A stretch of DNA of 64,000 nt, from NCBI RefSeq assembly GCF_042453785.1, contig NC_091670.1, positions 38,513,501 through 38,577,500 on the forward strand. The letters run 5' to 3'. How positions within the stretch are numbered: the first letter of the stretch is position 1; the number at the start of each line of letters is the position of its first letter. Of the stretch, positions 6,550-63,746 are shown one piece after another. The DNA comes from Malus domestica. Lineage: Eukaryota; Streptophyta; Magnoliopsida; Rosales; Rosaceae. The notes beneath the pieces were generated by a model, which worked only from the letters and a program-made list of their open reading frames with translations, had not been told where the DNA came from and searched no databases. A program made the translations under genes and the position numbers.

Positions 6550-11269
<4,720 letters not shown>

Positions 11270-33564: not shown

Positions 33565-33617
<53 letters not shown>

Positions 33618-39905: not shown

Positions 39906-40225
39906 GGGGATGGTCTCATCCCCCCACTTGCAAACATATATTCACTGTAAAAATTTCAATGTCTTAATTTTTTTATAGTTAAGTTCAATGTCTTAATCTT
40001 CATTTGAGATATATTCCTACAAAAAATCATTCGAATCGGAAATCGTTTAGTCATTCAAATCAAATGTATCAAATAATGAACAGTATTTAAATGACTAAAC
40101 GATATCTGATTCGAATAAATTTTTGTAGGAATGATCTTCAAATCAAGATTAAGACATTGAATAGTTCCTATTATGAAATTTCTATGGTGATAACGTTATT
40201 TGCAAGTGGGGAGAGCTCATCCTTA
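39906..40225. mobile_element. Foldback MITE (copy 1)
   Basis: The left part (CCCCCACTTGCAAACATATA, then ATGTCTTAATCTTCATTTGA and GAATCGGAAATCGTTTAGTC) is mirrored by the right part (GACTAAACGATATCTGATTC, CAAATCAAGATTAAGACATT, TTTGCAAGTGGGGAGAGC). A related element begins at 63747 and runs off the window. Confidence 0.75.
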
Positions 40226-40696: not shown

Positions 40697-40862
40697 CAAA
40701 TTTATTGGAAGTTTTAACGAAAAGTTCACGGTACTGTTCACTTTAACGAAAAACCACATTTTTACACTAAAAAGTCAAACCTAGTACAATTTACTTTACC
40801 CTTTATTTTGTCCTTATCGTTAAAACTTAAAGTTTTCAAGCCATTTTCATTAGTTTTCCTTA
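40697..40862 (-). mobile_element. Short interspersed element of unknown class (copy 2)
   Basis: Reverse complement of the family at 29933-30090, sharing TAACGAAAAACCACATTTTT, CTTTACCCTTTATTTTGTCC and TTTTCATTAGTTTTCC. Confidence 0.75.
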
Positions 40863-41213
40863 ATTTATTAGAGGATGTATCATTAAGTATAAGAACCCTA
40901 GATAAAAAGCATTAGACTATTAAAATCTCATGTATGACACTGAATATTAGTACTGTGAAGTTGAATCATCAGAGTTTTTTTTTCTCTTCTAGTGCAGCAA
41001 CATATTACTTAATCCACTTAACATCACGATTCAATTCAGAATAATCAGCTTCATGAAGTCTTTACAGCAAGTAACCGAAAAAAAGAGAGTAGTAATCTGT
41101 GCAGATAAGGTTTTCCTACCATGTAAAAGTCGGAGCAATTTCTGGATAATTAAAGTCATTGAAGCTTGTACTTTTCAACAAACAAATAAAAGAATAGTTT
41201 TTTAGGATCCCTG

Positions 41214-41221
41214 GCATATGC
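41214..41221 (+). promoter_or_regulatory. P1BS-like PHR1 site upstream of MIR399 hairpin 1
   Basis: GCATATGC fits GNATATNC, the palindromic site of the phosphate-starvation factor PHR1. It lies 15 bases before a TATAAATA box and 64 bases before the hairpin. One match to a short motif can be chance; its position next to a MIR399 locus makes it credible. Confidence 0.55.
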
Positions 41222-41235
41222 TCTCTCTCGGTTGC

Positions 41236-41243
41236 TATAAATA
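41236..41243 (+). promoter_or_regulatory. TATA box of MIR399 hairpin 1
   Basis: TATAAATA, about 42 bases before the start of the hairpin stem. Confidence 0.55.
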
Positions 41244-41284: not shown

Positions 41285-41440
41285 GTGCAGATGCATAAAT
41301 TACAGGGCAAAGTCTCTTCTGGCATGTAGCCACTTACAAATTACAAATTCTTAATTCTGGCTGAGCAAGCTGGCCAGCCTTGCATTACTTTTGTAGTGTG
41401 CTTTATGCCAAAGGAGATTTGCTCGGCAATTCTTCTGCAC
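41285..41440 (+). ncRNA. MIR399: MIR399 hairpin 1
   Basis: The mature miR399 arm is 41406-41426, starting TGCCAAAGGAGATTTG and continuing CTCGG. The 5' arm at 41305-41326 (GGGCAAAGTCTCTTCTGGCA) pairs with it with few mismatches. The lower stem GTGCAG / CTGCAC closes the precursor. miR399 represses PHO2/UBC24 and so raises phosphate uptake and transport under phosphate starvation. First of five such hairpins in the window, all on the plus strand with the mature sequence on the 3' arm. Confidence 0.92.
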
Positions 41441-41621
41441 TCTTTTGCATGCTCTATTGGAGAATAAGGAGATGTGAGACAATCACAATTGTTCAAACCC
41501 TGATCCTGCTATATTTCACTTTTCTGTTAGGATTGGCATGCAGTTGAAATTCATTCATTCATCATTTCCCAACAGCAGTGTGTTAATTTTTTACAACGTA
41601 CTATACCATGATAATTGATGT

Positions 41622-42074
41622 TGTAAACTTTATGTGGTTATATAATTAAAACACAAACGAAGGAATTTTAGCTGACCTGATCATGAAGCGATAGCCATTG
41701 GAGATCAAACGAAGAAGATGAAGGATGCGGCAACACCAAAGTCTTCTACAAAGCACCTAGCTGGATACAACTACTTTATGGGAAGTGTTTGTTGTGTCTC
41801 TAGGGTTTGCAGGGACCTTAGTATTTATACTGGCTAAGGCATTAAGGTTCCATCTATAAAGGAATCCCAAATCCCACTTTTTAGCCTATCAGTTAGGTAT
41901 CATAATCACATAAAATCAAGGACTCCATCAATCTTACTTATATTGCAAGACACCTAATATAAGATTGATATATTTAGGAAATAAATCACAATATCTACAT
42001 TAATCTCCAATATTACATTCCTATTATATGTTGTAGACCATTTAAGGTTGATTTACATCGGAATAAATCCAACA
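41622..42074 (-). repeat. 3' LTR (in element orientation) of the young LTR element
   Basis: 453 bases, TG...CA ends on both strands. Near-identical to 47029-47480. Confidence 0.95.
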
Positions 42075-42419
42075 TTCTCCCACTGGTCTACACATATAAT
42101 ATTTATGTTTATACTTGAAATTGAAGATTAATGTCACTTTAATGGCCATGTAGTTGTGATAACATCCTATCCTTGATACAAGTTTCTGTCAAATAAGTCT
42201 TTCAACATGGAACTAACAAGGTTGTAAGGTTGACACAACCAAAAACCTTCATAATCACACATGCTAAAATCCTCATCCACATGAAACACCGTCAAATTAT
42301 GATTGCAAAGATGAACTTTAATTACCTGAATGTGTCTCAACTTTTATCATCTCAGGTCCTCTTTAATGCAAACTTCTACTGCAGTTGCAAACAAAACTTC
42401 ATAAAACACAATTAATTCA

Positions 42420-44420
42420 ACACCTACGAGCAAGATGAATTAACATGTTTTTGACACTAGTTCATATACCATATTAGTTACTTTCGTGAGAAAAAATTTT
42501 CAACACTTATGAGCAAGATGAAAAAACCCTCACAACTAATACAACATATAAATCATGTCATGCCATTTTAAGTCGAACCAAAAGAATTAATCCACACCTA
42601 CGAGCAAGAAGATTAACCATTCCTTTATGACTTAAAATGCAATTTGCTTAACTGGATATCAGATATATCATCATCTGATAATTGACCAACACATAAACAT
42701 GTGACTTCATGAATCCAACCGGAGATTAAACTGAATGAATGGATTCAATCAACCATACATACCTTATAGGTCATCTGCAAATGTAAGGCATCAATTACAT
42801 GAAACTCAAGCTCCCACTGATTTGCAACATCGTCACTTAATTTGCAAATCACTACTTAAATCATACTTTTGAAATATGCTTGTGGGAACACCCTTACTTA
42901 GTCAATGAATGCATATCACTACAAAATTGTCTTTCTTTAACCTTTCCTTAACACCTTAAATAGCATAATCTCAATGAAAGGTAAAACTAAGACATTCACC
43001 GCTGTTTATACAAAACCATGCATTTCACAACCATCTATTTGCATTAATAATTCCATATTTGTGCTAAGTCCCCATGAGCCTCAAAATTCTTCTAAAGATT
43101 AACAAATAATCAATCAAGTCATCCAAATGATTGCAAGTAAAAATATACACATACACCAAGTACTCATTCTGCAACTTAAACATATTATTGTCATTCGAGT
43201 CATGGCATAATTCTAATTTCATCAACCAAAACACATATTCATGGAAGATAAAATAACACTTTATGCAAGTCCACTTAATGCTCAAAACTTTAGAACAACT
43301 CCCACTAAACTTTTAGAGTTTATACACTTATTGCAAATAAGTTAATGAGTGTGAAGCCCAATTTTCTTTCACTAATTCTCCCACTTGGGCAAACACTCAT
43401 TCATATATTCTTTCAAGGATTTACCTAAACAAATTTGCTTCATATTTTAGACATAATTAAATAGACATCACGACCAACATAAAGTTATCAAACAGAATTT
43501 CAGCAATGAGTTACACTTACTTTAGAATTTATCATAATTAATTTACAAGCTTAATTGCTACCAAAATTTTACAGATCAAAATAGACATACTATCATAAAA
43601 TAAAAATATAGGGCCGTTTTAGGTCAAACTAATTGTCTAAAGTGACGTCTCAAAAGACAAAAACAATCTGCCAGCAAAACTGTCTGTACGAGCATGGGTT
43701 ACTAGTAAATTCACCATAATTACACTACATGGCAAAACTTTACGAAAATTTGCAGACACATAGTAGACATATATATGTTGAACATATCAAAAATTCAGGT
43801 CGTTTGGTGATCATTAGACGTATCATTCACTCAATTTAAATCAAGACATGCAATCTGCCAGAAACAATTATGTGCATCTATCATGAATTTATACATCCAT
43901 AACAATTCAATTTCATATCATTTCAATTTTGATGTCCAAAGGAAACTCTAGTAGTCAAATTTCATCATCTAAAACGACATCATACTTCAAATTGAAAAGA
44001 TTTACAAGCATAAGACTTAAATAATGTGTACCTTAGCAATCCTTGATTAACCTTCATGGGTCCAATACTTTGCATCAACAAGTCTCATGAATAGACACAA
44101 AATATGTTATGATGCAACCGATTTCCATGCCTTAAAACCACAACCTATTATGGGGCTCATAGTGGGATTTTGTAACTGATGGCATGGAACTTTATCCCCA
44201 ATAAACTTCATGAAACTAGATTAATTTACACCTACGGGCAAGAAAATTAATTAGTTTCTAGTACTGAATTATATGTCACAAGAGTTACCTTCATAAAAAA
44301 CTTCAACACCTACGGGCAAGATGAAGTTTTCACAAACTCCTGTGAAATAAAACTCATACTATGCCATCTTAATTAAAACAAAGGAAACGATCCACACCTA
44401 CGGGCAAGAAGATTATCCCT
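42420..44420 (-). repeat. Dispersed internal repeat of the young LTR element
   Basis: The word ACACCTACGGGCAAGAAGAT, or close variants with ACGAGC, occurs at about 42421, 42497, 42594, 44228, 44310 and 44394, each followed by GAT- or AAT-rich text. Two blocks (42400-42625 and 44200-44420) line up over about 220 bases, so the interior contains an old internal duplication. Function unknown. Confidence 0.75.
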
Positions 44421-47028
44421 TTTATTCTAATTAAGATGCAACGTTGATCAAAGTAACTTAAAACCATAGTCCCAGCATCAACTAAGCCGCTACGGCTTGC
44501 TTAGTTGACAAGACATTAATCATCTCCAGCCTTCATGACTCCTTTCGATATCCAATTAATCTCAAAAAACCTGACAACATACTTGAAAGGAGATTAATCA
44601 CATATAGATCAAGTTGTATAAGAGCTATAATATCAATTTTCCACCACAAGGATGTCAATACGTATGAGAGAACATGATAAAGCTAATAGATTCAAAATAG
44701 AAACCCTTTAGACAATACCATCGATTTAATTCAAAAGCCAAATTGTGATATCACCTAAATGCTTTCTTAAGTCAAACGGGTTCCTTTCCTTTTGTGCCTT
44801 TCTTTCCGTAGTACAAGACTCCATATATTAGCCTTGAATAATTTATTTTCTTCTCCCCTTATGGCACAAAACGATTGACTGATCAAAACATTGTTTAAAT
44901 TCTTTAGGCATAGGAAAAACTAACAAACTATATACAAGTTTGAAAACTTATGCTTATCAATTTAGTCATATGCTTTAAATGAAATTCATTCCTCATGCCT
45001 TCATATGTTCACCACTTCTTTATAAACATATATATAATCACATGACCAACCACAATTCTCATATAAATAGATAAAATACAAATGAGAATTGTCACATAAT
45101 TACTGCATATCTCATTCATTTGTATAATGTTCTTGTTCTTGTTCTTGCCACTGGATGCTTTATGTCATTCTTAGTCAATCCACAAATTATACATCAAATT
45201 TTCATAATTAACTAGTTATGTATAATTTATACGACTATTGAGAGGAAAGCAAATTATAGATAAACCTGATCGATTAGTCACGCATATTGCTTGTGCTATT
45301 AATGGCATAAAAGTTCATTCACATATTGTGAAAATTAGTGGAAACAAAACCACAATTCACTATAGTTCAAAACCCACGGCAATATTAAAAATATGTTATC
45401 TCATGCTTGAACCAAATTAGCCATACAAGCAACACTATACACGTCATTTGCTTAACAAATGTTGCCAAAATTTGTATGACTTACTTTCATGTATGGGAAT
45501 CTAATTCATTAACATACTTGTATATAGTTGACATGTATAAAACTTAGCGTATGCTTCCCTGCAACACTATTGTAATATATGTTATTACAATCATAGGCAT
45601 AACATATCCCAATAGTATTGATAAATTATAGGATATGACTAATTATGTCTCCTACAACAAAAAACACGTCACGAGATGGTTGGATTTTGCAAGAACAATA
45701 TAACACTTCATGAATCCAACATAACCATTCCTTATATAATTTATCATGAAGACCAAAAGGCAACATCATACCAGAATTTCATATACCGATGTAATACGAA
45801 CCTCTTCATTGGGCTTGTTCCACTGAGGAATCTTAAGAAATTCTCCAATGCAAGGTTAGAACAAATGTAAATACATATACATGCTATGCGAACTGTAGAT
45901 ACATAATTGGCTTTAGAAAATTATATATACTTGCTTGATCCAACAATTGCTGGCACTTATGCAATTGTTTCTTGTCACATTAACGTATCACTCGTAGCAA
46001 TTCATATAGAATGCAATTCATGGAAAATAATATTAGTTCTTATTCAATAAGCATATGCCCATTTAGATACGTATTGCCAAAATATATAATATTTGGATCC
46101 ATATTCATGACATACTTAACCGATACATGGTAATCAATGTATGTACATACTCTACAATAATTAGTACATCACTCATGCAATTATATCTTATCTTATTACC
46201 AATTTAAGCTTTCAGGGATCAACCCAAATATATATCAACCAAAATACCATAAACCATTATGGAAATCAAAGTCAATGAAACAAACCATTTTGCTTTGGTA
46301 GATGACTTCGTTCTGTTTGCTAATCGGAGGGACCTCTTCAGTAAGGTCAGAACAAATATAGCATGCTTACAAAAATTGAGATCATCAGTGGCACATGGTA
46401 AATCAATTCAACCAAAACACTAGCATGAAGATTGAAATAGAACAAAAAACTGTTATTCTTCTTAGTGCCATGGTTTCCACTGTAAAAATACATAATATAA
46501 TACCACGCCTTACATATATGCTTCTTTACGTTCCTATTTGATTATAGGATTCCAATTCCTATATGGTTTTTAAATTTCATGCTTCAATACCATAAGAATA
46601 TTATATAAATTCTATGCTTCAATTCCATAATTTAATTCATGCTTGATCAAAAGCACCTCTAAGCGTAGTTCAATTTCCAATTGGCAAGCAAAGCTATGTG
46701 GTTATATATAATACACCGCATACAATATTATGGATTCGTGCTATAATCAGGCAACTTGTCTTGCTGATAATAATCAAGGTATCAATTAGCATAGTTCTTA
46801 ATAAATTTCCCTTGACTGCAACCATAATATTAGTGAAAAATATTCTTGATTAAAACTGAATAATTATGCAACCTGATCATAATTAACAATTGAACTTATT
46901 CAAATCGCATGGTGATGTTGCCGAGTATATGCAATGAGAATTTGGATTAAACACGCAGTTCAAGAGAATATTATATAACATTAAACCTAATAGGTTTTAA
47001 TTATATAACCAGTGGCTCTGATACCACA

Positions 47029-47480
47029 TGTAAACTTTATGTGGTTATATAATTAAAACACAAACGAAGGAATTTTAGCTGACCTGATCATGAAGCGATA
47101 GCCATTGGAGATCAAACGAAGAAGATGAAGGATGCGGCAACACCAAAGTCTTCTACAAAGCACCTAGCTGGATACAACTACTTTATGGGAAGTGTTTGTT
47201 GTGTCTCTAGGGTTTGCAGGGACCTTAGTATTTATACTGGCTAAGGCATTAAGGTTCCATCCATAAAGGAATCCCAAATCCCACTTTTTAGCCTATCAGT
47301 TAGGTATCATAATCACATAAAATCAAGGACTCCATCAATCTTACTTATATTGCAAGACACCTAATATAAGATTGATATATTTAGGAAATAAATCACAATA
47401 TCTACATTAATCTCCAATATTACATTCCTATTATATGTTGTAGACCATTTAAGGTTGATTTACATCGAATAAATCCAACA
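47029..47480 (-). repeat. 5' LTR (in element orientation) of the young LTR element
   Basis: 452 bases, near-identical to 41622-42074, with the primer-binding site just inside. Confidence 0.95.
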
Positions 47481-47485
47481 GATGT

Positions 47486-48845
47486 CGGTATATGTATATA
47501 TTAGAGTTAGTGTGAATTAAACCTAAAACCTTAATTTTTGATTATTCAGCAATTACTAATGTATCTAAGGAGAATTAAACTCTGCATGAATACCTCAGAT
47601 ACCAGTTGTTTTCTCACTTTGGTATTAACATTGATTTGAAAACTGATTGAGCATGATGATTTTCTTTCTCAATTTTTTTCCTTTCTCATTTAACTTCTCA
47701 GTGATGATCTGTGTTTCTGGAGTTTACAGCCTCAATAAGGGAATCGGCAGAAAGTGCAAGCGGCTGTCTGTGAATTTAGGAGCTGTCTGAAGCCTGAAGC
47801 TCAGTCACACTTGAAAATTTTCTGAATCTAAACCCTTTGTATACAATGATTAAGGTCATGTGAATTCGAAAGTTGTACACAATTACTTGTTGCAATAAAT
47901 TTTAATATAGGGTTTAAAGATAATCAGTATTGCAGGACTATTTCATTGATACCAATGTATAGAGCTGCATTTCATTCTCAATATGACTTCTTTTAGAAGA
48001 AATGTTATATATAAACTCATCTCCTTCCATTCATCAATGCATGAAGTTATCCTAAATCTCATGCATCTGTCATGTGTGAGTATTGAGTAGTCCACATGTG
48101 ACACGAATAATACCATACAGTTGCAAACTTGGATCCTGTATACCGTAAATATTGCCTGCAGTACCGTGCAGATGAATTCAACTCCTAGGTCCTTTGTAGT
48201 GAGACAGACATGAAGAAAAGCCTTAATCTAAAATGTTGCTATATGTCTCTCAATTTTGGAGTTGATTTTCTCTTCGATCTCATTGTAGTCGTAAACCCTA
48301 AGCAACGGTCTGTCAAACCCTAAAGGTTGGTATGTGCTTGTGTCGAAAAAGCAGTAGCATTTGCTACTTCAATTCGACACGGTTTACATGTTCGGAATAG
48401 CTAGGCATATCCATAACTACAAGAATTGTCAGGTGCTGAGGATCATTCCTCTACTAAATCCCAACTTCAGGAAGCATGTTCGAGCCTAGTAATTCAAACC
48501 CATCCAGCATGGTCCATCACTAATATCACTAATATATTAAGTATAAAAACTCTTATATATTAATTGTATATTATTTTGTTATATGACCGATTTTCGAACA
48601 AGAGAAACCTTAAGAAAGAGAAAAAATGGATATTCGTTTTTTTTTCTTCACATTCTCTATATTGTACGAACATTATCTTCTTCTATATATTGTACTATTT
48701 GTTTTTTTTCTTTAGGTAAAAGCAAAATGTTTGCTCTGATGTTTGTTGAATGATCATTTGGATGTGTTGGGCTTTCCAACGATGGACATGCACATATGTT
48801 GGACCACTGCCTTACAATACTATATGGCAGACAAAGAAATGCGTC

Positions 48846-48887
<42 letters not shown>

Positions 48888-49090
48888 ACATACATCATTC
48901 TATAAAAGAAATTCATTTATTCACATACATAAGGAATTTGTCTACGTGTAGTGTGCGTAATTAGTTGATTAGTAAATATGATACAAAAAACATGTAATCC
49001 TCATAAATAGAAGTATAGTGAGCATGCATTCCTCATAAGTAGAAGTATAGTGATAAAATTTGAAAATTAAACGCTACCTCATTAATCTCT
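47486..49090. other. Intergenic region, no supported gene
   Basis: No gene recognised. A (TC)n microsatellite lies at about 48850-48878. At 49100-49160 a 38-base segment with ATCTCAAATTTTCATCGGGA is present twice in tandem, right next to the plastid-derived piece. Confidence 0.55.
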
Positions 49091-49154
49091 GTACAGTTTG
49101 CAACTTAATCTCAAATTTTCATCGGGAAGGACGCTCTTAATCTCAAATTTTCAT

Positions 49155-49376
49155 CGGGAATGACGCACCTTTGGTGTACCAATTATCGTGCCCACGGTAA
49201 AAGCTAGGTAGCCAAGTGCAGAGCAGATAACTGCTGAAAGCATCTAAGTAATAAGCCCACCCCAAGATGAGTGCTCTCTTATTCCTACTTCCCCAGAACC
49301 TCCGGTAGCACAGCCAAGACAACGATGGGTTTTCTGCCCCTGCGGGGTGGAGCGACACAAGTTTTGAGAATTCAAA
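49155..49376 (+). pseudogene. Nuclear plastid insertion: 3' part of plastid 23S rRNA gene
   Basis: The sequence runs through landmarks of the plastid 23S rRNA 3' region: GACGCACC, TACCAATTATCGTGCCCACG, TAGCCAAGTGCAGAGCAGAT, AACTGCTGAAAGCATCTAAG, CCCACCCCAAGATGAGTGCT, CTCCGGTAGCACAGCCAAGA, CTGCCCCTGCGGGG and AGTTTTGAGAATTCAA. About 220 bases are present, with scattered changes that are mostly G to A and C to T compared with what I remember. That pattern is expected for an old insertion decaying by deamination. The rest of the rRNA operon is absent. An open frame of 71 codons on the minus strand here is a shadow. Confidence 0.88.
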
Positions 49377-49579
49377 TGAAATAATTGTTTATGCATTGCA
49401 AATAAGGGAGTAAAGTTGGTGCCACTCAAATTATTGTTCTTTGAGCATACATATACCTGAAGCGCTCGAGTATAAATACCATGGTTTTTGGCTATTAAAA
49501 ATCAATAGCATAAATTAATTTCCTTGTGACTATAAATTCCATGGTTATTGATCATAAAAATCCACAGCATTTTAATGCA

Positions 49580-49690
49580 CTGCAGGTGAATTACCGAGCA
49601 GCCTCCTCTTGGCAAACTACCTATATCTTCTACATAAGAATTGAGAAACGCTGTCTGCCAAAGGAGATCTGCTCAGCAATTCTACTGCAG
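49580..49690 (+). ncRNA. MIR399: MIR399 hairpin 2
   Basis: The mature arm is 49656-49676, TGCCAAAGGAGATCTG followed by CTCAG. The 5' arm at 49595-49614 (CGAGCAGCCTCCTCTTGGCA) pairs with it. The stem is closed by CTGCAG on both sides (49580-49585, 49685-49690). The mature form differs from hairpin 1 at position 14 (C for T) and near the 3' end. A TATAAATA box lies about 110 bases upstream (near 49471). No strict PHR1 site was found in the 450 bases before it. Confidence 0.9.
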
Positions 49691-49699
49691 TTTCTATTT

Positions 49700-51700
49700 T
49701 GCATGAACATACCGTACTCCTAATGTGCTTATACATGAACAGAAACAAGATACGATTATTAACGCCGTTACTTGACTTTGAATTCGTTCTACTTGGTTTA
49801 TGTAGCATATATTTCATATTTATGCTGTAAAGTTAATCTCTTCTTAATTTCCAATCTATACACATTCATTATGTGTGCTAATGGCTACTTGTACATATGA
49901 TTACAGGTAGTTTGCCACAGGCTGCTGGATCATTGCAGATTGGCTCCTCAAGGTGAATCTGAATTTGAACATCAGTGAAGAAAGTTGAGGTTTCACCATA
50001 AAATCAATTGTCAATATAATGAGTAGCAACTTTTTATAAACACATGCAAGATCCCTTAACTCCCCGATATTGGATTCACACTCTGAAACAGTTAGGATTG
50101 TTTGGTTTGGCCGTGAAATACATGTATTTTTTAAGTAATAGCTCCTTACAGAGTAGCAAATCAATATACATTGACAAGTTCTACTAATGGGATACTACTC
50201 TGAATTTATGTACAATAGCTCAATGAATATTCAAACACATGGATACGCAATAAAATTTGGAGAGAACAAATCATTTGCACTGCGGCCTGTTGACCAATTA
50301 AGTGCTACATCTCAAGGGACTTTTGTTCATCGATGTTCTTCAACTAATATGATATTCATACAAATTTGTTGTAATAAAATTTATATTTGACAGAAGAGAA
50401 TTTGTGGCATCATTCTTAAGACATGTAATATTTGAACTCGTTTGGAGTTCAATTCAAAGCAACTGATGAACAAAAAATAAGCACCATGCTATTATGCCTA
50501 CTACTGTTGACATGCAGATCCTTTAAACTGTTTTAAGCTTTAGCTTTAGTTTTCTAAGCTTATTTAAGTTGAGTTTGTCTGTACGGATGTAAACTTTTCA
50601 ACTTGTTCTTCTAGGGTTTCCTCTTCTTTGTCTTCTAATGTTAGCTTAAGTTGAGTTTGTCCGTAAGGATGTAAATTATCAACTTGTTCATCTAGGGTTT
50701 CCTCTGCTTTGTCTTCTTCTCGGCACTAAGAGGGTATGGACCATCAATCTGGCACACATATTATTTCTTGTATAGAAATTCATACGTGTACGGACATGCA
50801 TGTTACACAAATGGAGGTGTGATATCTTAATACATACCGAAAATTCTACAGTGCTCCAGAATATAGGATATTTCTAAACTTAATAACAGTTAGCTACTTA
50901 GCTATTGATTTTTATATTTTTGATCAAAAATCTAACGGTTAAAAAGCTCGGAGTTTCCTGTACTCTGGACCACCGTAGAAAATCCTTAATGCATACATCA
51001 TTCATGCCCGAGTGATCAATATCCATTATGCTAATATGTGCGTCCTTGCTCGAGTTTCTGCACACAAATATAACTTTCGGGTCCATCTGCTGGCTGCTGA
51101 TGACAGCCATGAGAACTGAGATTGCAACTTTACACGTACCTGAAAGATAAAGATTTTGGAGAAGATGCCTATGGAATATGGATCTTCCATAACGAAGCAT
51201 CCACAAAAAATCTGTTCTCTTTCTCTTTTTTCATCTTTTCCCCATTTTCTCGATAACCCTATCAAGCATTGTTAATTTGATTCTATTGTGTGAAAGCTAT
51301 ATGTGACGTTTCAGGTTGAGGTAGGGACATGATAATTATATGCATTGATACAAAATTAAAACCCTTGTAATAAATTGTTGACTAAATTGATGTGATATAT
51401 AGCATATGGTTTTATGGCATGACGGAATACAAGTGTCAGAAACCCTAGTAATCTAAATTCTGGGTAAGGTGATGGGTACTAGCCAGGTTAGAAGTCCAAG
51501 GATCAAAACTGTCATTTGTAACACAAGAAAAAATTTGGATCAATAACCTGTAATATATATAATTTGCGAAACAGAATCCTTTTCAATGTAAATTAAGAGG
51601 AATTAGTACTTATGAAATCAAGTGATGAAAAGCGTTCCAAGTCACTCAAGGGTCAAGAGTCAAGAGAAGAAAGCATTGTTCTATTGTATACGCTCATCTT
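49700..51700. other. Intergenic region, no supported gene
   Basis: A tandem duplication of about 80 bases lies at 50560-50720 (AAGTTGAGTTTGTC, then GTAAGGATGTAAAT and TCTAGGGTTTCCTCT in both copies). No gene recognised on either strand. Confidence 0.55.
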
Positions 51701-51755
51701 GGACAGTATAAATTGTACTGGTCTCCATGGCATCATTCCGCAGAACTGAATGAAG

Positions 51756-51880
51756 ATCAGCTGGCTGCAGTTGCATTACATGGCTGTTCTCCATTGGCAG
51801 GCAGCAATTATGAGATGCATGTGTTGGCTTCATGCATTCCTGCCAAAGGATATTTGCCCAGCAATTCTCCTGCCGCTTTG
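51756..51880 (+). ncRNA. MIR399: MIR399 hairpin 3, divergent mature sequence
   Basis: The mature arm is 51841-51861: TGCCAAAGGATATTTG followed by CCCAG. Position 11 is T where miR399 has G. The 5' arm at 51781-51800 (TGGCTGTTCTCCATTGGCAG) pairs less well than in the other copies. The lower stem (AGCTGGCTGCAG with CTCCTGCCGC) is intact. A TATAAAT box is at about 51706. It could be a functional variant or a decaying copy. Confidence 0.75.
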
Positions 51881-51889
51881 TTTCACACA

Positions 51890-53630
51890 AAAATTCTGTT
51901 GTTAATAATTTGCTTGGATATAGTTGTTTTGATTTGTAGAGTCATTCAATTTTCTATTACAAAAATGGCAAAATCAATTAGTCTATATGTGTATGGAGTA
52001 ACAAACTTTTAGAGTAAATAAGATAGTTATTAGATGTTTCACAAGATCATAAAAATACTAAAGATAGTTATTAGCAAGGAAGATGAGTATGGACAAATAA
52101 AAAATATACTATAGCTTGTGACATGCCATTGAAAATTGAGGGTAAATTTAGCAGTTTATGATTAAGGATAAAAAAATCCACACATGCGCACAAATGGAAC
52201 GTTGTAGGGTTTTATATACAAGTGGTATCGAGAGAGGCCGAATTCTAACTCAAGACTTTGGGTGCAAAGTGCAAAAGAAAATGCTTTTAACTAATTGAAC
52301 TAAAAACCTCTTGCAATATATACTTGTAGGTAACTTTATCGTTAATTTATTTTAAACTTTGAATACTCGAGTCATGCCATTGCACTTTTGGGGAAAATTA
52401 GGCACACAAAAATTTCGTCAGATTTCAATAAATAAATACAATAAAAATAAAAAGGATGAATATATTGGATTTTGATGCTTTATTGATCAATGAGAGTAGT
52501 GACCATGCTTATAGAAAAATTGGGTGATATACCTTATTGTCAAACATCAATAATAACACCAATAGAACACTCAGATCACCAATAGAACAATCTGATCACC
52601 AAATTGTGGCGATATTGTTCTATAGATTTTGGCCACAATCATATGTTGTCTTCATAAACACAAACAGAGACAATTGCAAATCATGTAACTAGTGGGTGCT
52701 TTTCTTGTAGTGATTGAGGTGAACCCCTTTAAAATATATACATCACAAGCACTTAGGCTAGAAGGAATAGGATTGTTTAAAGAGTATGTAAATTACAAGT
52801 TTTGTGGAAGAAGAAATTCTAATTAGGTTTGTATTCTATCACAGAAACGAATGTGGATTAGTAGCCCACTTAGAAACCAAAGTGGATTAGCTAGTTTTCA
52901 TACAACTGTGGCAAAACTATACATAGGGAAAATAACAGAAAGTGGAGAAGGAAATTAATCCTCTGAAAGTTCAAAACTGTTCACAATTTCTTGAGTAAAG
53001 TTTCATCTATAAATATTGAAACCAAAAAATTCCTTCTTTCTTTAAACCTTAGGCTTTCAGAGCACCACAATGTATACAAACTATCAAAGACTTAACTATG
53101 TCAATGCTAGATTAGTGGTACTTCTCTTTCATCCGTTGTGTTTGTTGCCTTGAATCATCTGGTAATCACTTTTCAAACGTTTGTATCAAGATCATCTGAA
53201 AGCACTAGCTTTCCAAGAATCAAGACTAGTTGGGGTTCTTGAGCTCTGCACAAAATTTAGTACAAATCAAACTGCAAATTTGCAGTTATCAATCTGTATC
53301 AGGCTTTCATCCGCATTGTTGTGACATGGTAATGTAGATGAGTTTCTCAAGTTGAAGTTGAAAAACGTAATTAAGGCATATCTGTCTTTCACACAATCTA
53401 ATCTCCACCTCTGCGCTTCAATGGCACGAATATGTATATTTTTCTCGGAGTATTATTCATTTACTAGTACTTTTGTTGCCAAAACAATCATCATCTTCAT
53501 ACCAAAGCAATAAAATATTAATTAACAGCAACAGTGAGCAACAAATAAAGATAAAAAAAAACATGTGCTAGCTAGCTTACTGTATTTGAAACCGATAGAT
53601 GGAAGTGCATGAATGGTGCGGACACACACA
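51890..53630. other. Intergenic region, no supported gene
   Basis: AT-rich DNA between hairpins 3 and 4. No recognised gene, hairpin or transposon ends. Confidence 0.5.
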
Positions 53631-53639
53631 CACATATTT

Positions 53640-53647
53640 GGATATTC
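53640..53647 (+). promoter_or_regulatory. P1BS-like PHR1 site beside MIR399 hairpin 4
   Basis: GGATATTC fits GNATATNC and lies just before the stem. A second match, GCATATCC, is in the loop at 53694-53701. Position inside or right next to the precursor is unusual for a promoter site, so these are less certain than those of hairpin 5. Confidence 0.35.
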
Positions 53648-53650
53648 ATT

Positions 53651-53780
53651 GGTAGAGTTATTGAATTGCAGGGCAATTCTCCTTTGGCAGAAAGCATATC
53701 CAGTGGTAGTACTCAAGAGTAAATGCACCAGAATCATTTCTGCCAAAGGAGATTTGCACTGTTATTCATCCCTACCCTCA
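53651..53780 (+). ncRNA. MIR399: MIR399 hairpin 4
   Basis: The mature arm is 53741-53761, TGCCAAAGGAGATTTG followed by CACTG. The 5' arm at 53671-53691 (GGGCAATTCTCCTTTGGCAG) gives a near-perfect duplex and itself has the typical miR399* form. The loop is about 48 bases. Confidence 0.93.
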
Positions 53781-53789
53781 GCACAGTCC

Positions 53790-55130
53790 TTTAATTCATT
53801 GTGCACCTTGCATATGCATGCATATGTACTTGTTAAGGTGAGTTGCTGCAGGAAGTTGAATTGCTTGCCATGGTTTTTATTAGGGCATGAATCGTGTGAT
53901 TCGCACATTAGACATGGATATTCTGGGGAGATCGATCAGTATATCCGAGGCATCATTCTCTACTGAGTCTTTCTTCTTGCTATATAATGCTATCATGGTC
54001 CCCTCCCCTCCCCCTTCCCTTAACAAAGCTGTTGTGTAATTTCTTCCCGTACATATGTACACAAACATTATATATGTTTAATTCAAATATCTATTCACAT
54101 TATGTTTGCAGTCATCTGTCTTGATTAACTAATATTGTCCAGTCCTCTTGCTTCTGCCTAAATTATATTGAGAATGAGTCCCACATTGATGGGATGAATG
54201 ACCTTAAATGGGCTTATAAGAGGTTTGGCTATTCCCTATATTGCTAATTGGTTTTATGGTGGAACCTCAACTTTCTTCATGTCTACTAATTAATAAAGCA
54301 TTCATTGTCAACCAAAACTCTATGAAATTACCAATTTAACCTTCTCGGACAATATCTCTACTAATTAATAAAACACATTGTCAACCAAAACCCTATGAAA
54401 TTACCAGTTTAACCTTCTAATTAAAGTAGAACATGAATAAGAAATATGGGGCAGAAATGTAATTTCACACAACCAAATTTTGCTGTTTTTTATATTTAAA
54501 CTTTACCTGCATGTAATCCTAACATATCTCTAATTATAAAAATAAAAAAAATAAAAAAAAAAACTTCCTACTCCCAGGTTCTCTATCACTCCTTTCCTCT
54601 CTTCTTCTATTTCAAAAACAAAAATAAAAAATTTTCTCGGACACACTGTGTGTGCCCATATGCTAGTGTCAATAACAGAAAGAAAACAACAAAATCAGAA
54701 ATAGGTACAAATGAAAATTTATCGGATATGCTGAAGTAAACAGTCGCATATGCTGCGTGCGGGTCAATATATATTCCTCCTGGAGCTAGCAATAGGTTCC
54801 CTTTCTCCATCATGTGATCGTGGTCCAAACCCAAAATATCCTCTCCCGTCCATCTCAATATTTTTGGCCATCTTTGCACTTTGAGGTCTGGTTATCAGTC
54901 TCTCCTTTAGTTCATATGCATGTTACATCCTTCATTACGGAAGCAGTAACGCACATTTGGATCTTCCTCCATGAGTCCTTTCGAGTTTTCTTGTTTGACC
55001 TTTTTGTTTCCTTCTTTTAATTCGTATGCGAAACAAGTAATCAAGCATATTAGGACAGCGTGTATGAATACTCTGTTTCTATGGGTCAGACTTTCTGTTG
55101 TCAATGAACAATTCTCCAAATTAATCCTCA
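53790..55130. other. Intergenic region with small repeats
   Basis: Two imperfect tandem copies of about 75 bases (ACTAATTAATAAA, then TTGTCAACCAAAAC and TATGAAATTACCA) lie at 54280-54425. The stretch from 54176 (GAGTCCCACATTGATGGG) resembles the end of an LTR-type element, but no partner was found. No gene recognised. Confidence 0.45.
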
Positions 55131-55492
55131 CTTGTGGCGATATTCAAATCAAACAATGCAAATAGGAAAGAGTTAGGAGTCTAACTAAATTACTGAAACT
55201 ACATACATATATACGTAAATACACACATACAACACACACACATGTATCCACTACTAGAATTTTGGCTAAAGAACATCCTTTTTGTTGGTGTCTATTATAA
55301 AGAATGGGCACTGACATTGGTGACAAACCTCAATTGCCACCATACAACCACTAAATAGAAGTCTATTATTACAATCACCACCAATTAGATAACGGTGGCA
55401 CAATGAATAGTTACACCTTTGAAATATTATTATACATCGGTGGCCATGTTGTAATATGTTTTTTTTTAAAAGGACCCATTAATCTGGGCACC

Positions 55493-55495
<3 letters not shown>

Positions 55496-55549
<54 letters not shown>
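55496..55549. repeat. (AT)n microsatellite
   Basis: About 27 AT dinucleotides, inside the CACTA element. Confidence 0.97.
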
Positions 55550-55554
<5 letters not shown>

Positions 55555-56171
55555 GACTACACAAAATTGCATGTTTGCTGTAGTCTTCCATAACTAGTCA
55601 CATATTCCTAAAATCAGGGCTAAAAACAATGAGCTATACTAAAAAACATGAAACTATCCATCAGAAGTACAAACAGGCAACAAATTGGAAGGAAATTGCC
55701 ACATAAAAGACTTCATAGTTTCTTGAACACCTCCAAACTTGTTTTTTAAGAGTGACATGCTCCCCGTAATGTTTGAGCCTCAGTAATTGCTATCTCTACC
55801 TGCAAACACATACGCACATGGATCAAATGACTAAAATATACAAAAAAGTATGCCTTTACAGTTTTATTGTTTCCTACAACCTGCATAAAAATCATATACT
55901 TGCGAGTATGATTCTCTATAATTTTCCACACGAAAAAAACAGGTTAAGACAAGTGTGTAAATCATTTCTCTTTTTGAAATTGTGAGAAGCTAGAGGCAGG
56001 ACTAAAGTAGAAGTTGGTACTGCAACATAATTGAGTTGGCGAATTAAAAAGTTAACTAGTTAGATATGTAAATTAACACCGAAGTCTTAAAATGCGTACA
56101 TAATACATATGCATACAGAAGCCCTTTATCTTATATGATCGATAGTAATAATTAGCATGTAAATGTGATGA

Positions 56172-56921
56172 TCAAAGGAGAGTAGATGTGCAATCCATGG
56201 AGAAGGGATTGCAGATTGCATTGTCCATACAGAAGTGGGGATAGTGATGGTGTTGATGAAGAGTTGGGTCCATCAAAACAAATTGCATGTCTTCTGAAGG
56301 TTTCCAATGGCGTTTCCTTTGGTTGATGAACCAATTATTTATCTGTTTAAGTTCCAAACCAGTTGATTCTGCCAGTGCTAGCTTCTGAGCCTCCTGCATT
56401 TAATAAACAAGGTCCCCTTATAATATATTGCGCTACCACAACAAGAAACCCAATATTCGTGGTATAATGTTTGCTTATGTTGTTAGAATCAATATGAACT
56501 AAGACAACAATCAACATGATGTATGTCTACGTTTGATTATGTTGTTAGACTGGATAGGAACTACAACAAAAATCCACATAATTAATGTTCCGGATTTGCA
56601 GTACATTTAGAATGTAAGGATCTAAATGAACAAGGATATAGATGAGTATGAAAAATATACCAATGGATAGGGCGACTTGTAATGTCTGCACCACCAGTCA
56701 AGCAACTGATGCCATGCTTCCTTTGGCAATTTTCCATTCTTTTTCTTCTTCATAAACTCCTGCTTCAGAGTGCCCAAATATCCACTGCATTTGTGCGAAA
56801 GCTGAACTTTGAGTTCTCTATCTTCAGCTTGAGGATCTATGTCATTGATCGCATTAGCCTCTTCTGGAGATCTATCTAGTCCAACAAAATTGCCACCACT
56901 AGTACTAGCTGATCAAGCATG
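56172..56921 (-). pseudogene. Captured 3' part of an STM-like class I KNOX homeobox gene
   Basis: Two exons: complement(56172..56393) and complement(56661..about 56921). Exon A has the ELK region (PQAEDRELKVQL, SGYLGTLKQEFMKKKK) and the start of the TALE homeodomain (GKLPKEAWHQLLDWWCRHYK). Exon B has [34 protein letters not shown] and a tail with [12 protein letters not shown] that matches SHOOT MERISTEMLESS. The junction (donor GTATAT, acceptor TGCAG) is in frame. The KNOX1/KNOX2 (MEINOX) exons are missing. Conserved residues have changed: Arg to Trp in KEAR, Trp to Ser in YKWPYP, Ser to Leu before the junction. A fragment inside a transposon; a truncated protein cannot be excluded. Confidence 0.88.
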
Positions 56922-57719
56922 CCACAGGATCAGAGGAGAGGAATGTTATAAGGAAGATAATATATAGCCTAGCCAGGAATATTAGTCAAACTCCATGAAC
57001 CATTAAAGCTTACAAGTATGTCTGGTGAATCGAGAAGAAACTTCATACATAAACTTCCCAAACAAGTGAAAATGACCAACAGAGATGAAGTTTGGATGAC
57101 AGTCTATCCTACAGATTTTATATGTATGGAAATGGTGAACGCAGTCAAAGAATACACACTTATTTTCTTCCATTTAGAAGAGAACATTATATTCTTTATT
57201 TAGTTGGATTCTTGACAAATGTTTACAGTTTACCTGACAAATAATCACTTGATGATGACACTTAATTTTTCTCTATCTCCTTCTTCATATATGGGATTTG
57301 AACCACATGTAATATCTTCACCTTGTGCAATTAGTACTTAAGAGGTACTCAGTGCCTACACCTATTTAATTAACTGTTCGATTTGATCCTATGGCTTAAA
57401 CTAAGTGACTGATGAAATCCAACGGTCACATGTGTCCACATATAGTGCATGTATTAACTAGGAAAAAATCACAACTTTTATAATATCTGTCATTAGTTAC
57501 AAGTCTCAAGATCTCAATATATATTTAGATTTCCCATATTCTAGACAACTAAAGCAAGAAGAGAATCAAAGGTCACAGACATATCTACGGAGTCTTAGAT
57601 ACACGTATATACGAGTAAGATCTCTAGCTTCAAGAGAAAAGTTTCCCTAACTACAAACTAATCGTATGGATTTTCTTTCAATATTTTTTCAAAAGAAGTT
57701 AAGCACAGCAGGAAGCTAC

Positions 57720-57858
57720 CAAAGGTATGGTCTTCATAATAGCCAGGTTCATCTAACAATCATGCCCTTGTGCAACGGAGTCATATTTCCAAATCGAAAG
57801 CTAAAACCTTGAGGTCCCTCATGAACATTTAATGCAGCTCCCACACCGTGCCCAGTTC
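57720..57858 (-). pseudogene. Captured, frameshifted exon of aminopeptidase P1 (APP1)
   Basis: One exon with splice signals at both edges (acceptor GGTAG, donor GTAGC). It encodes TGHGVGAALNVHEGPQGFSF and RFGNMTPLHKGMIV, then after a two-base deletion EPGYYEDHTF in another frame. This is the metal-site region of Xaa-Pro aminopeptidase 1 (M24B; HGTGHG and NEPGYY motifs). Neighbouring exons are absent. It is a genomic (intron-edge-bearing) fragment captured by the CACTA element and already broken. Confidence 0.85.
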
Positions 57859-58385
57859 CTACCACAATTAAAGACAAAAGTACAAATAACCGAGGGGTAT
57901 GAACTCTGTCTCTCTCAGGTTTTCAACACTTAAACAATTAGAGGACATAATTAAGTATAAATTTAACTGAGATCAGCTCAAATACCTCCATGCTTATCAT
58001 ACAACTCTACAGCTAGCTAATAAAAATACAGACAATCCAAGTTTGAAATTCCAGTTGATCGATCACAAGGCATCAAAGGTCAAAAACAAACCCCTTAACC
58101 ATCTTAACCATCTCAAATCTGATGCACGGGTATTGTTGGTGTTTTTCCAAGAAAAAAAGGAAAGAAAATCTCAGATCTGAGAGAAGTGAGAGAGGTAAAG
58201 AGAGATGCATAGATTTTGTTTGGTTGAGAAAGAGAGAATTTGGGTAGAGAGAGACAGAGGGAGGGGTTAAGGGGAGGGAGAGGGATAGGGAGGAGGCGAG
58301 GAGTTGAGCTCAAGAAGACTGAAAAAGAAATTAAAAAAACAGGTTCCAAAGTTGAAAAAACATGTAAAATAACTTAGGTGTCAGC

Positions 58386-59455
58386 TAAATCTCAGTTTAC
58401 CACCCTCAAGTTTTGTGATTTTAACTTTTGGTATATGAAGTTTTTTTAATCCCAGAATCATACCTAAAGTGTTAAATTTAGAACTTTATCGTAAATCTGT
58501 TAATCTGACTGTTAAATCTCTCGTTAACTACTGATGATGTGACGTCTATATAGATAATGATTGGTCGCCCCCTGTCATTAAAGATTCACGTGAAAATTAA
58601 AAATTCAAAAAAATAATTATTTAAAAGAAAGAAACAAAAAAACTCATATCCCCCGTCTCCCCCATAATCCCCATCCATGCCCACTCTCCCACCCCCTATC
58701 ACCCACCCCTTCCCCCATCCCCTTATCACCCGCAACCACTTCCCTCCCCACTTAACAAAACAGGGGGCTGATGGAGACGAAAATTCAGTCGTTGTCACTC
58801 AAATTCGACGAAAGGGTCTCCATTGAATCGAAGCTCAATGGGTTTAATGGGTTCAGGGGAGTCTTGTACACAATGAGGAACGTGAGCTCACTGCTGCTAA
58901 TGATCCTACTATACGGGCTGGTGTTCTGTTGGCCGGAGGAGGAGTCGTTCATGGTATTGACGGTGAAGCTGCAGAGTGGGTTGTGGCGGAGATCAGGCAG
59001 ATCAGGAAGAGGTCGGGGGTTCTGATGTGGGAGTTCAGAAGGTCAAAGGCGGCAATGGAGGAGTTGAGGGGGGATCTGGATAGGAGGGGACCATAGTTGG
59101 TGGAGTGGGAGGAGGAGGGCAAGCTCAGGTGGGATGGAGGCGCTGTTAGAAGGGAAGTGGTTGCGGGTGATGGGGGTTGGGAAGGTAGGCGCGGGTGGGG
59201 ATTTTTTTTTTTATTATGTACTTTTCTTTAAATAATTATTTTTTTGAATTTTTTATTTTCACATGGATCTTAATGATACGTGGCGTCCAATTATTGTTCA
59301 CATAGGTGTCACATCATCAATTAATGAAAGAGTCAAACTAACGGATGTATGAGACTGTCCTAAAATTAACACTTTAGTATGATTCTTGGACGAAAAAAAT
59401 TTCTTGTACCAAATGTTGAACACCACAAAACTTGAATGTAGTAAATTGAGATTTA
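58386..59455. mobile_element. Inverted-repeat element nested in the CACTA, with a gene piece between its arms
   Basis: The outer arms (TAAATCTCAGTTTACCACCC, AAGTTTTGTG, and on the other side CACAAAACTTGAATG, TAAATTGAGATTTA) and inner arms (ATTTTTTGAATTT..., GGAAGTGGTTGCGGGTGAT) are inverted copies about 250-380 bases long. Between them lies GC-rich sequence unlike the flanks. It resembles a Pack-type element that picked up host DNA. Exact ends and target duplication are unclear. Confidence 0.65.
58771..59095 (+). pseudogene. Captured fragment of an unidentified plant membrane-type protein gene
   Basis: The open frame from 58771 encodes a stretch with a hydrophobic segment ([18 protein letters not shown]). 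After a frame change near 58965 it continues with [20 protein letters not shown] and AAMEELRGDLDRRG before a stop at about 59095. The composition (hydrophobic segment followed by an amphipathic helix) and the GC content are unlike the surroundings. I suspect a plant membrane protein of unknown function but cannot name the family. Confidence 0.5.
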
Positions 59456-60105
59456 TCGCAAAATTTTTATAGTTTGACACTAATGAGTGGTGTTTACAAA
59501 GGTTAAAGCCACCATAATCGGTGTCAGGCAAGTTAAAGACACCAAATTTTGACAACAGTGACAGTCCAATTTACAAGGCCACCGATGAAGAACGGTATTC
59601 TCAAAACGTTGTCCTGTAGCACATTTTCTAGTAGTGATATTTTCTTATTATTCAAACATTTGTGAATATTATCTAGTATACTGGGAATTAAAGGCAAACT
59701 ATAAGGTTGTGGTGACGATGGAATAAAGGCTACAGGATCACATATTCTCTTCGCCGCACTATTCAACGAACTTATCTAACTAGCTAGTAAATTGGCGATA
59801 TTCAAATCAAACAATGCAAATAGGAAAGAGTTCGGAGTCTAATTAAATTACTGAAACTACATACATATATCCATATATACACACATACACATATCCACAC
59901 ACACATACACATACATATACCCACACACACACACACACACACATATGTATCTTTTCTTATTATTCAAACGTGTGTGCATATTAGCTAGTATACTGGGAAT
60001 TAAAGGCAAACTATAAGGTTGTGGTGGCGACGGAATAAAAGCTACAGTACCACATATTCTCTTCACTGTACTGTTCAACAAACTTATCTAACTAGCTAGA
60101 AAATT

Positions 60106-60124
60106 GGATATGCTCAGAATATGC
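60106..60124 (+). promoter_or_regulatory. Two adjacent P1BS-like PHR1 sites upstream of MIR399 hairpin 5
   Basis: GGATATGC (60106-60113) and GAATATGC (60117-60124) both fit GNATATNC, three bases apart. A TTATATAAT box follows at 60178-60186 and the hairpin begins at 60297. The order site pair, TATA box, hairpin is a normal promoter layout for a phosphate-responsive MIR399 gene. Confidence 0.7.
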
Positions 60125-60296
60125 TATTATGCATGGCCGGTTCCAGACTCTCCCTAGTCCATATGATCCAAATCCGTTTATATAATCATATTGAATCCCC
60201 AATCTGTTCATCGTCAATCATGTCTTCCCCCTAAAAAAAAAATAGTCAGAGAGAGAGAGAGAGAGAGCGAGCTATTCAGTAGTCAAAGATCATATG

Positions 60297-60363
60297 GATG
60301 CATTACTGGGCAATTACTCCTTTGGTAGTGGACTACTTGACTACTACATGCATGTATACTATA

Positions 60364-60412
<49 letters not shown>

Positions 60413-60476
60413 ATGGTTGTATTAATCGTACGTCGTCTGTGCTCACTGCCAAAGGAGATTTGTCCTGCAATTCATC
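60297..60476 (+). ncRNA. MIR399: MIR399 hairpin 5
   Basis: The mature arm is 60447-60467, TGCCAAAGGAGATTTG followed by TCCTG. The 5' arm at 60308-60330 (GGGCAATTACTCCTTTGGTA) pairs with it, and GATG/CATC closes the stem. The loop is about 115 bases and includes an (AT)n microsatellite at 60368-60408, which makes this the longest precursor of the five. Confidence 0.9.
60368..60408. repeat. (AT)n microsatellite in the loop of MIR399 hairpin 5
   Basis: About 20 AT dinucleotides. Repeat-length changes would alter the loop but not the miRNA duplex. Confidence 0.95.
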
Positions 60477-60479
60477 AGC

Positions 60480-61479
60480 TGTGCAAATTAAATTCATATC
60501 CAACCCAGTCATATATGCATGATCATGAGTCGTCTCCAACTCCTACAGGACGTCCCAACAGGTATGGATATAGTAGTCCCGCTAGGACAATACGTTATGT
60601 ATATATGCATGCGGCAGCGGTGGATTGGCATAAATATGTATAAAGATATATATCGCTTATTAGCTCATAAACATTGAAGAGATTAATATAAAACAAGACT
60701 TTCTTTTTGTTCTTGGTATAAATATAGGGCTTAGCTCATATTCTTATTGCACCACATGTGTTTAATTTAATTGATCAACTAGCCTGAAAGAAAAATCATT
60801 AAAAGCGTCTGGTTGCACCACATGGGTTTTGATTGATCATCTAACTTAGTGAGAAGGCTTGAATGACACTCACACGAGTTCACATTTAATGTATCGTTTT
60901 GTGCAAAATGTTATTATACAAAGAAAAACTTGCACATAACATAGGGACGCTTTGAGGGTAGCCTTAGGCTGCAACCCAAGTGAGATTTTGAAATTAAAAA
61001 TATTAGTTGTAGTTGTAATGATTTAGTACAACTCAGCCCAAGTTAGGTGTTTCACTTAATTTAGGTTATGTGATTAGGATTATACTGTGTTGTTTATGTT
61101 TGTTGAACTTTTTTTTGTCAATTGTTGAGTATTTTGAAGAATTCTCATTTTATTAAGATTTTACTTAGTATGTTGTACATATTTGCATTGCATGTTTGTT
61201 TCTTGCTTTTGTTGTATGTTTTTGTATGCATTTTGAAGATGCTCAATTATGTCCTTCTAACCAGGTACATATTTGTTATTTATTAATGAAATTTACTCCT
61301 GCCGTCGAGTTTTTTTAATTTTTTTAATTTTTTTTTTTACAAAGGTTTCATTTATGCCCAATGTATATTTTAGTCGAAGAGATGAGAAACAATATTATTA
61401 GGTTTTTTAATAGGTTATGTAGCCTAGAAATTTTGCCTTCATGACGTCACTATAATAATGTACATGTGGCATAACATTT
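60480..61479. other. Intergenic region, no supported gene
   Basis: Nothing coding or structured is recognised downstream of the last MIR399 hairpin. Confidence 0.5.
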
Positions 61480-61640
61480 AAGGAAAATTAATGAAAATAG
61501 TTTGAAAACTTTGAGTTTTAACGATAAAGATAAAATAAAAGGTAAAATGAATAGTATCATAATTAACTTTTTAATGTAAAAATATAATTTTTCGTTAAAA
61601 TAAATAGTACCGAATGTTTTTCGTTAAAGTTCCTAAAATT
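61480..61640 (+). mobile_element. Short interspersed element of unknown class (copy 3)
   Basis: Same family as 29933-30090: GGAAAATTAATGAAAATAGT, AAACTTTGAGTTTTAACGAT, TAAAATGAATAGTATC, and the end TTTTTCGTTAAAGTTCC. The most diverged of the three copies. Confidence 0.75.
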
Positions 61641-62172
61641 TACTCACAAGCTATTGTATAACTCATTTAGGTGCATGATGATCACAACAGGGGTTTGACC
61701 GGCTTTGATGTTGCCACGTTCTTCAGTATTTTACAAGAATATTTATATGTTAATCAATAATTAAGCATCGATCAGTCAAAGGAAATAAATATGTACATAC
61801 TTCTTTCACATCTATACAAACAGTTCAGTATGAGTGTGACCTCCAATCAGGCACGAATGCAAGATTAAAAAATAGGGTGAGTTGAACCTTTAGTTAATTT
61901 TTCCTCGTCTAAACTTTTGAAAAAGTCTCATGTTTTTACGAATTTTTTCAATTTTATACAACCTGTGAAACCTCGTGTTATTTATTTCTACATCTTCAAC
62001 TTCAACAGCCATAGAAGAAGAATCATATATAATATACATCGGGCGTATATAAAGTTATTTGTATAAAACAATGATAGAAGAGTAAGAGACGAACTGGTCT
62101 GTCAGATCGATATCGGGTGGGCAGTGGATGTATCATGTATAGCAAGATGGCTGAACCTCAACGTACTGCTAA

Positions 62173-63025
62173 GGCCATCTCTAACCGAGGGCTGGCCAGA
62201 GGGCTCGTTTTAGCTCTCTGGCCCTCCAAGATTCTCCAAGATATTAATATTTTAATGAACAGTACAGGACCATATTTGCCTCCGTCTCCAACCGAGGGCC
62301 AGAGGGCCAGAGGGCTCGTTTTAGCCCTGTCACAAAAAACCGTCTCCAACCGAGGGCCAAAGGGCCATAGGGCCAAACATAATTTATTATTTAAAAACTA
62401 CAACTTAATTTTATTTAAAAATCATGTTGGTTAGTGTTGTATAATTTTTATGTTGGTTAATGTTATTTAATGTTGTTTCATATTGTTTAATGTTGTTTCG
62501 TGTTACTTAATTTAATTTAATGTTGTATAATGGGTTAGGAAGTTATAGAAAAAAAATAGAATTTAAAAAAAATATGAAACAATTTTTGTGAAATAGAAGT
62601 TATAGGAAAAAAATGGAATTTAAAAAAATATATGAAACAAATTTTGTAAAATAGAAGTTATATGAAAAAAATATGAACCAAATTTTGTAAAATATAAGTT
62701 ATAGGAAAAAAATAGAATTAAAAAAAATTGAAACAAATTTTGTAAAATAGAAGTTATAGGAAGTTATAGAAAAAAATAAGAAAAAAAAAAGGTTTACAAC
62801 GGCTAGTGGCGCTAGCTGTTGGAAGTTTGAATTCAAATTGTTATTTCTGTCGGTTATAACCGACAGAAATGAGAAACATTAAAAAAAAAAAAGACCCTCC
62901 AACCCTCTCCGATCCCGTGGGACCCTCCCAGATTCCCGAGCCCTCTGGCCTAGTCCTCGGTTGGATACGGTTTTAGGGCTATTTTCGGCCCTTTGGCCAT
63001 CTGGACCCTTCGGTTAGAGATGGCC
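62173..63025. mobile_element. PIF/Harbinger-like MITE (family C) with internal tandem repeats
   Basis: The ends GGCCATCTCTAACCGAGGGC and the inverted GGCCATCTCTAACCGAAGGG match at nearly all positions. TAA is duplicated (62170-62172, 63026-63028). Blocks of CCGAGGGCCAGAGGGC recur near the left end. In the middle (about 62530-62790) a unit of about 55 bases with AAGTTATAGGAAAAAAATAG is repeated four to five times. No transposase. Confidence 0.87.
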
Positions 63026-63028
63026 TAA

Positions 63029-63745: not shown

Positions 63746-63746
63746 T

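Follow-up and report, generated by a model that had tools for sequence, protein, structure and literature searches.

The window analysed here is a 64,000-nt stretch of Malus domestica (NC_091670.1, positions 38,513,501-38,577,500; plant DNA with a GC content of 35%), and a covariance-model search with the Rfam MIR399 family (RF00445) matched five of five hairpin loci within the feature interval 41285-60476, with E-values ranging from 1.2e-10 to 8.6e-17. No further MIR399 match was detected in positions 1-38000 up to an E-value of 0.1, nor in positions 38000-64000 up to an E-value of 1. The five loci, numbered h1 to h5 along the window, are genuine MIR399-type sequences and constitute a real cluster of a known kind, the matches at every locus bearing out the family assignment of an earlier sequence-only reading. 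The precursors, with their RF00445 scores on both strands, are as follows:

41293-41436, plus strand: h1, MIR399 precursor (mature 41406-41426, star from 41305; 58.5 bits on plus, 36.5 on minus)
49584-49686, plus strand: h2, MIR399 precursor (22-nt mature 49655-49676, star 49596-49617, as sequenced for pear miRn8; 55.6 bits on plus, 53.7 on minus)
51769-51871, plus strand: h3, decayed-looking MIR399-like copy (mature-like arm 51841-51861; 56.0 bits on plus, 39.9 on minus)
53659-53771, minus strand (most likely): h4, MIR399 precursor (mature 53689 down to 53669, star from 53759; 69.5 bits on plus, 76.4 on minus)
60296-60477, plus strand: h5, MIR399 precursor whose loop is an AT repeat (mature 60447-60467, star from 60308; 63.0 bits on plus, 36.9 on minus)

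Plus-strand scores exceeded the RF00445 gathering score of 57 bits in h1, h4 and h5 (three of the five loci), with h2 and h3 just under it. Arms of the TGCCAAAGGA type start on the plus strand at 41406, 49656, 51841, 53741 and 60447, and searching both strands of the window for TGCCAAAGGAGA with up to two mismatches returned 14 matches, compared with a mean of 5.66 and a maximum of 12 in 100 shuffles. At all five loci the plus strand has a TGCCAAAGG-type arm on the 3' side of the hairpin, where the earlier reading had placed it; the mature UGCCAAAGGAGA core on this arm was exact in h1, h2, h4 and h5, and carried U for G at position 11 in h3. The proposal that the cluster holds several mature variants was likewise supported. 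Plus-strand folds surpassed 200 of 200 shuffles for h1 (z = -4.8), h2 (z = -5.5), h4 (z = -7.8) and h5 (z = -7.4), and unpaired mature bases numbered two to three of 21 in h1 (n = 2), h2, h5 and both strands of h4. The limit for a microRNA stem is about five, and h3 had eight of 21.

The sequence-only reading had described five sound hairpins, and the folding check sustained this for h1, h2, h4 and h5, which are stable, but not for h3, with its eight unpaired mature bases and a fold z of -0.2. Of 200 shuffles, 80 were at least as stable as the full-length h3; a second run put this number at 89, and with three shortened versions of the hairpin it came to 57, 38 and 11 of 200. Its mature U at position 11, next to the slicing point, sits opposite C in a proxy target site (the complement of canonical miR399), and literature queries with its mature string in RNA and DNA forms found no paper. 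Overall, h3 looks like a copy in decay that could still be transcribed, its TATA box being kept, and only small-RNA reads would justify listing it among the working genes.

No other gene had been noticed in this 19 kb, and that view proved wrong. Two further features lie between the hairpins:

41622-47480, minus strand: LTR retroelement of 5,859 bp between h1 and h2, with matching LTRs, GATGT on both sides and a primer-site sequence
56912-56625 and 56399-56175, minus strand: ELK and homeobox exons of a KNOX-type gene between h4 and h5 (PF03789, 22.4 bits; PF05920, 42.2 bits)

The LTR element begins about 180 bp downstream of h1. Its LTR pair is 99.56% identical over 453 columns (two differences), GATGT flanks both ends as a target-site duplication, and TGGTATCAGAGCC adjoins LTR2 on the minus strand as a primer-site sequence. 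No gag-pol frames were found within 41622-47480, where the longest stop-to-stop frame spans 82 aa; the element is therefore non-autonomous or degenerate, and was probably inserted recently as a non-autonomous copy. The KNOX-type gene is perhaps a truncated copy, since no upstream KNOX1 or KNOX2 exon was seen by eye in minus-strand translations of 55900-64000. Some residues of the two exons appear unusual for the family. Neither the LTR element nor the KNOX-type gene is part of the function of the cluster. A candidate sixth hairpin, TGCCAAAGGAAG at 56717 on the minus strand, was rejected as coding sequence of the KNOX exon.

All five hairpins had also been placed on the plus strand, a claim that was not borne out at h4, which scored higher on the minus strand both in Rfam (by 6.9 bits, with either strand above the gathering score) and in a leave-one-out profile that scored each hairpin against the profile of the other four. 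In that test, h1, h2, h3 and h5 favoured plus (h3 by a margin of only 1.9 to 8.0 bits), whilst h4 favoured minus at 63.0 versus 50.8 (12.2 bits), or 20.6 versus 7.0 from the outer columns alone (13.6 bits). A covariance model built from h1, h2, h3 and h5 was set aside in favour of this profile, its consensus structure being poor (13 pairs, not the MIR399 stem). The stem of h4 is a near-perfect palindrome, so that TGCCAAAGG is seen on both of its strands; h4 alone among the five carries the exact 12-base core on both strands. The flank 3' of the mature arm reads GCAATTC in h1, h2, h3, h5 and the minus-strand h4, and GTTATTC in the plus-strand h4. Fold z-scores were -8.2 on minus and -7.8 on plus, and the mature-star duplex was computed to be slightly stronger on plus (-28.2 versus -26.5 kcal/mol). 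The minus-strand product is the canonical mature UGCCAAAGGAGAAUUGCCCUG, which stands next to mdm-miR399c in a mulberry table (PMC4131894) and is tabulated with PHO2 as a degradome target in Populus tomentosa (PMC8438446). Literature queries with the plus-strand h4 mature string, in RNA and DNA forms, found no paper.

Candidate promoter elements were located upstream of the hairpins, with P1BS sites called as matches to the pattern GNATATNC and reported without strand:

41214-41221, no strand: P1BS (GCATATGC) upstream of h1
41236-41242, plus strand: TATAAAT box, 69 nt ahead of the h1 star strand
49531-49537, plus strand: TATAAAT box, 65 nt ahead of the h2 star strand, with a second TATAAAT 125 nt before it
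51707-51713, plus strand: TATAAAT box, 74 nt ahead of the h3 star strand
53810-53946, no strand: three P1BS (53810, 53916, 53939) upstream of the minus-strand h4, with two more at 54724 and 54746
60106-60124, no strand: two P1BS (60106, 60117) upstream of h5

With a zone of 60-80 nt, which was set post hoc, the probability that TATAAAT falls in it by chance in at least three of the five genes is about 2.4e-6. TATAAAT precedes each of h1, h2 and h3, and separate genes are therefore favoured over one transcript. No TATAAAT was found within 400 nt upstream of the minus-strand h4, the only similar motifs there being TATATAG, 227 nt ahead of the star, and TATATAA, 315 nt ahead of it. Both h1 and h5 are preceded by P1BS together with a TATA-like box.

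Within 500 nt upstream, P1BS numbered one for h1, none for h2 or h3, three for the minus-strand h4 and two for h5; within 1 kb of h4, five sites lie upstream in the minus orientation and one in the plus orientation. With h4 taken as minus, upstream sites across the five genes reached six within 250 nt (random mean 0.51, p = 0.0004), six within 500 nt (mean 1.03, p = 0.0094) and nine within 1 kb (mean 2.05, p = 0.006), and downstream sites one, one and two at the same distances. These p values partly presuppose h4 on the minus strand, because three of the six 250-nt sites belong to it; with h4 left out, three sites lay upstream and none downstream within 250 nt. Across the whole window P1BS was not enriched (26 versus 21.8 expected). 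Published tables list one to three P1BS in the MIR399 promoters of Arabidopsis and Nicotiana (PMC6296076). From these sequence features, whose lines of evidence are not all mutually independent, h4 is most likely a minus-strand gene, and should be annotated as such.

Small RNAs matching h2 have been published from pear and apple. Japanese pear miRn8, described as pear-specific, was sequenced as mature CTGCCAAAGGAGATCTGCTCAG and star GAGCAGTCTCCTCTTGGCAAAC, which are the plus-strand arms of h2 (PMC4791883); compared with the window, the mature is identical and the star agrees at 21 of 22 positions. By inspection, the ends sequenced in pear leave 2-nt 3' overhangs. In the literature consulted, no hairpin of the cluster other than h2 has a counterpart for which both strands of the duplex were published (PMC4791883). 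For miRn8 a single degradome target is tabulated, which is not PHO2 but an RSH3 gene (category 2, p = 0.05; PMC4791883). Apple miRC27 (TTGCCAAAGGAGATCTGCTCAG; table total of 12, no star found) was listed as apple-specific and differs from the 22-nt h2 form only in its first base, T instead of C (PMC3446319). Both are 22-nt forms with the h2 mature sequence and, in those papers as consulted, neither is classed as miR399. Judged by sequence, 'pear-specific' miRn8 is a 22-nt member of the miR399 family, and 'apple-specific' miRC27 probably is as well. The strand margin of h2 in Rfam was only 1.9 bits, and its minus-strand fold was the better one (-56.9 versus -41.0 kcal/mol; z of -9.1 versus -5.5 on plus). 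Because P1BS is absent from the 500 nt upstream of h2, and because its pear product is 22 nt long, the expression and action of h2 may differ from those of the other copies. MicroRNAs of 22 nt can trigger secondary small RNAs, and the h2 product therefore deserves a targeted look.

Repeated local duplication had been offered as the origin of the cluster. A recent event of this kind is doubtful, because the copies are alike in register only in the hairpin arms, and counterparts of the mature h1, h5 and minus-strand h4, identical or one base different, occur in cassava, lupin and grapevine; h1 and h2 share about 15 nt of extra flank (BLASTN, E-value 1e-4). The mature sequence of h1 equals cassava mes-miR399e (PMC9963618) and that of h5 equals lupin Lan-miR-399c (PMC6376761) as tabulated there. 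In grapevine, MIR399a, d, e, f and h are all placed on chromosome 10, where mature a/h equals the minus-strand h4, d is one base from h1 and f is one base from h5 (PMC10931670, PMC2831844). Grapevine e lies at the same one-base distance from h1, so that more than one pairing fits; the comparison covers mature sequences and chromosomal placement. These counterparts suggest that the cluster may be older than the rose family.

The shared features with the RF00445 family are the 3' mature arm, the conserved outer stem and P1BS upstream of three of the genes. The present cluster differs in that h2 and h3 score slightly under the gathering threshold, that h3 seems to be in decay and that h4 passes on both strands. 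Closely spaced MIR399 homologues are reported for Arabidopsis and rice (PMC2358906), and the comparison with the present cluster covers that spacing. Might other repeats be traces of hairpin duplication? Two pairs, 59637/59949 and 55135/59793, were rejected, being direct repeats that do not account for an inverted h4. An inverted pair of 80 nt with 80% identity links 49976-50053, downstream of h2, with 54200-54279, upstream of the minus-strand h4; it was also rejected as such a trace, being out of register with the hairpins. Literature searches for an already described MIR399 cluster in Maleae, or for antisense or palindromic MIR399 genes, gave none that we recognized as this one among the matches listed, supplements and miRBase being outside their scope, so that this is a weak sign of absence.

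We consider it highly probable that the locus is an old Maleae cluster of separately transcribed MIR399 genes, in which h1, h2 and h5 lie on the plus strand, h4 is inverted and encodes canonical miR399, and h3 is decaying. If the cluster behaves as its family does, low phosphate would activate PHR1, which would bind P1BS upstream of h1, the minus-strand h4 and h5; the hairpins would then be diced into miR399 variants that would cleave PHO2/UBC24 mRNA, increasing phosphate uptake. PHO2/UBC24 is here a predicted target that follows from the family. The likeness of a neighbouring WRKY exon to Malus proteins makes the apple tribe the most likely source.

Transcription of both h4 strands, each with an intact core and each yielding a miR399, is an unlikely alternative reading of the same locus, under which opposing transcription could set the amount of miR399. 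It draws on h4 being the only hairpin with the exact core and a score above gathering on both strands, where both fold z-scores are near -8, but a near-perfect stem by itself produces a two-strand signal, and the promoter-like P1BS sites lie mainly upstream in the minus orientation. We regard five working MIR399 genes, all on plus, as decidedly improbable: the 3' arm and a plus-strand Rfam match do recur at all five loci, with h4 above the gathering score there, yet the fold and pairing of h3 speak against it, as do the strand scores, flank and P1BS side of h4.

Four of the hairpins (h1, h2, h3 and h5) share a strand, and co-transcription can occur in plant microRNA clusters, for example that of miR395 (PMC2358906). 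A single long polycistronic transcript is nonetheless very improbable, given the TATA box before each of h1, h2 and h3, the 5.9-kb retroelement between h1 and h2 and the inversion of h4. The decayed appearance of h3 and the transposons inserted nearby would fit a cluster that is wholly a relic without expression, but strong folds are kept in four of the five precursors and the pear counterpart of h2 was sequenced with its star (PMC4791883), making this reading extremely improbable. As miR399 controls phosphate uptake in crops, a corrected map is of practical use for apple and pear.

A simple-pattern search for an IPS1-like target mimic gave two matches, both antisense of mature arms (those of the minus-strand h4 and of h3), and the candidate was rejected. 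Several repeats occupy the remainder of the window. Related inverted-repeat (MITE-like) elements at 39984-40161 and 63719-63998 flank the cluster, and a repeat of about 160 bp occurs in three copies that are 81-91% alike (29932-30092, 40698-40863 and 61478-61641). Long inverted arms at 58386-59455 (78% over 247 columns) are perhaps a foldback transposon. The segment 32120-32312 scored 118 bits for MIR7533 (gathering score 230) and 87.8 bits for MIR5380 (gathering score 150), and is likely a palindromic transposon rather than a microRNA gene, because its scores are similar on both strands. Three neighbouring genes were also identified:

8084-11269, plus strand: Ras-family GTPase gene
33172-33804, minus strand: bHLH ACT-like domain protein gene
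16999-17508, minus strand: exon of a WRKY65-type factor, with 96% identity to one protein of Malus baccata and 82% to another from Malus
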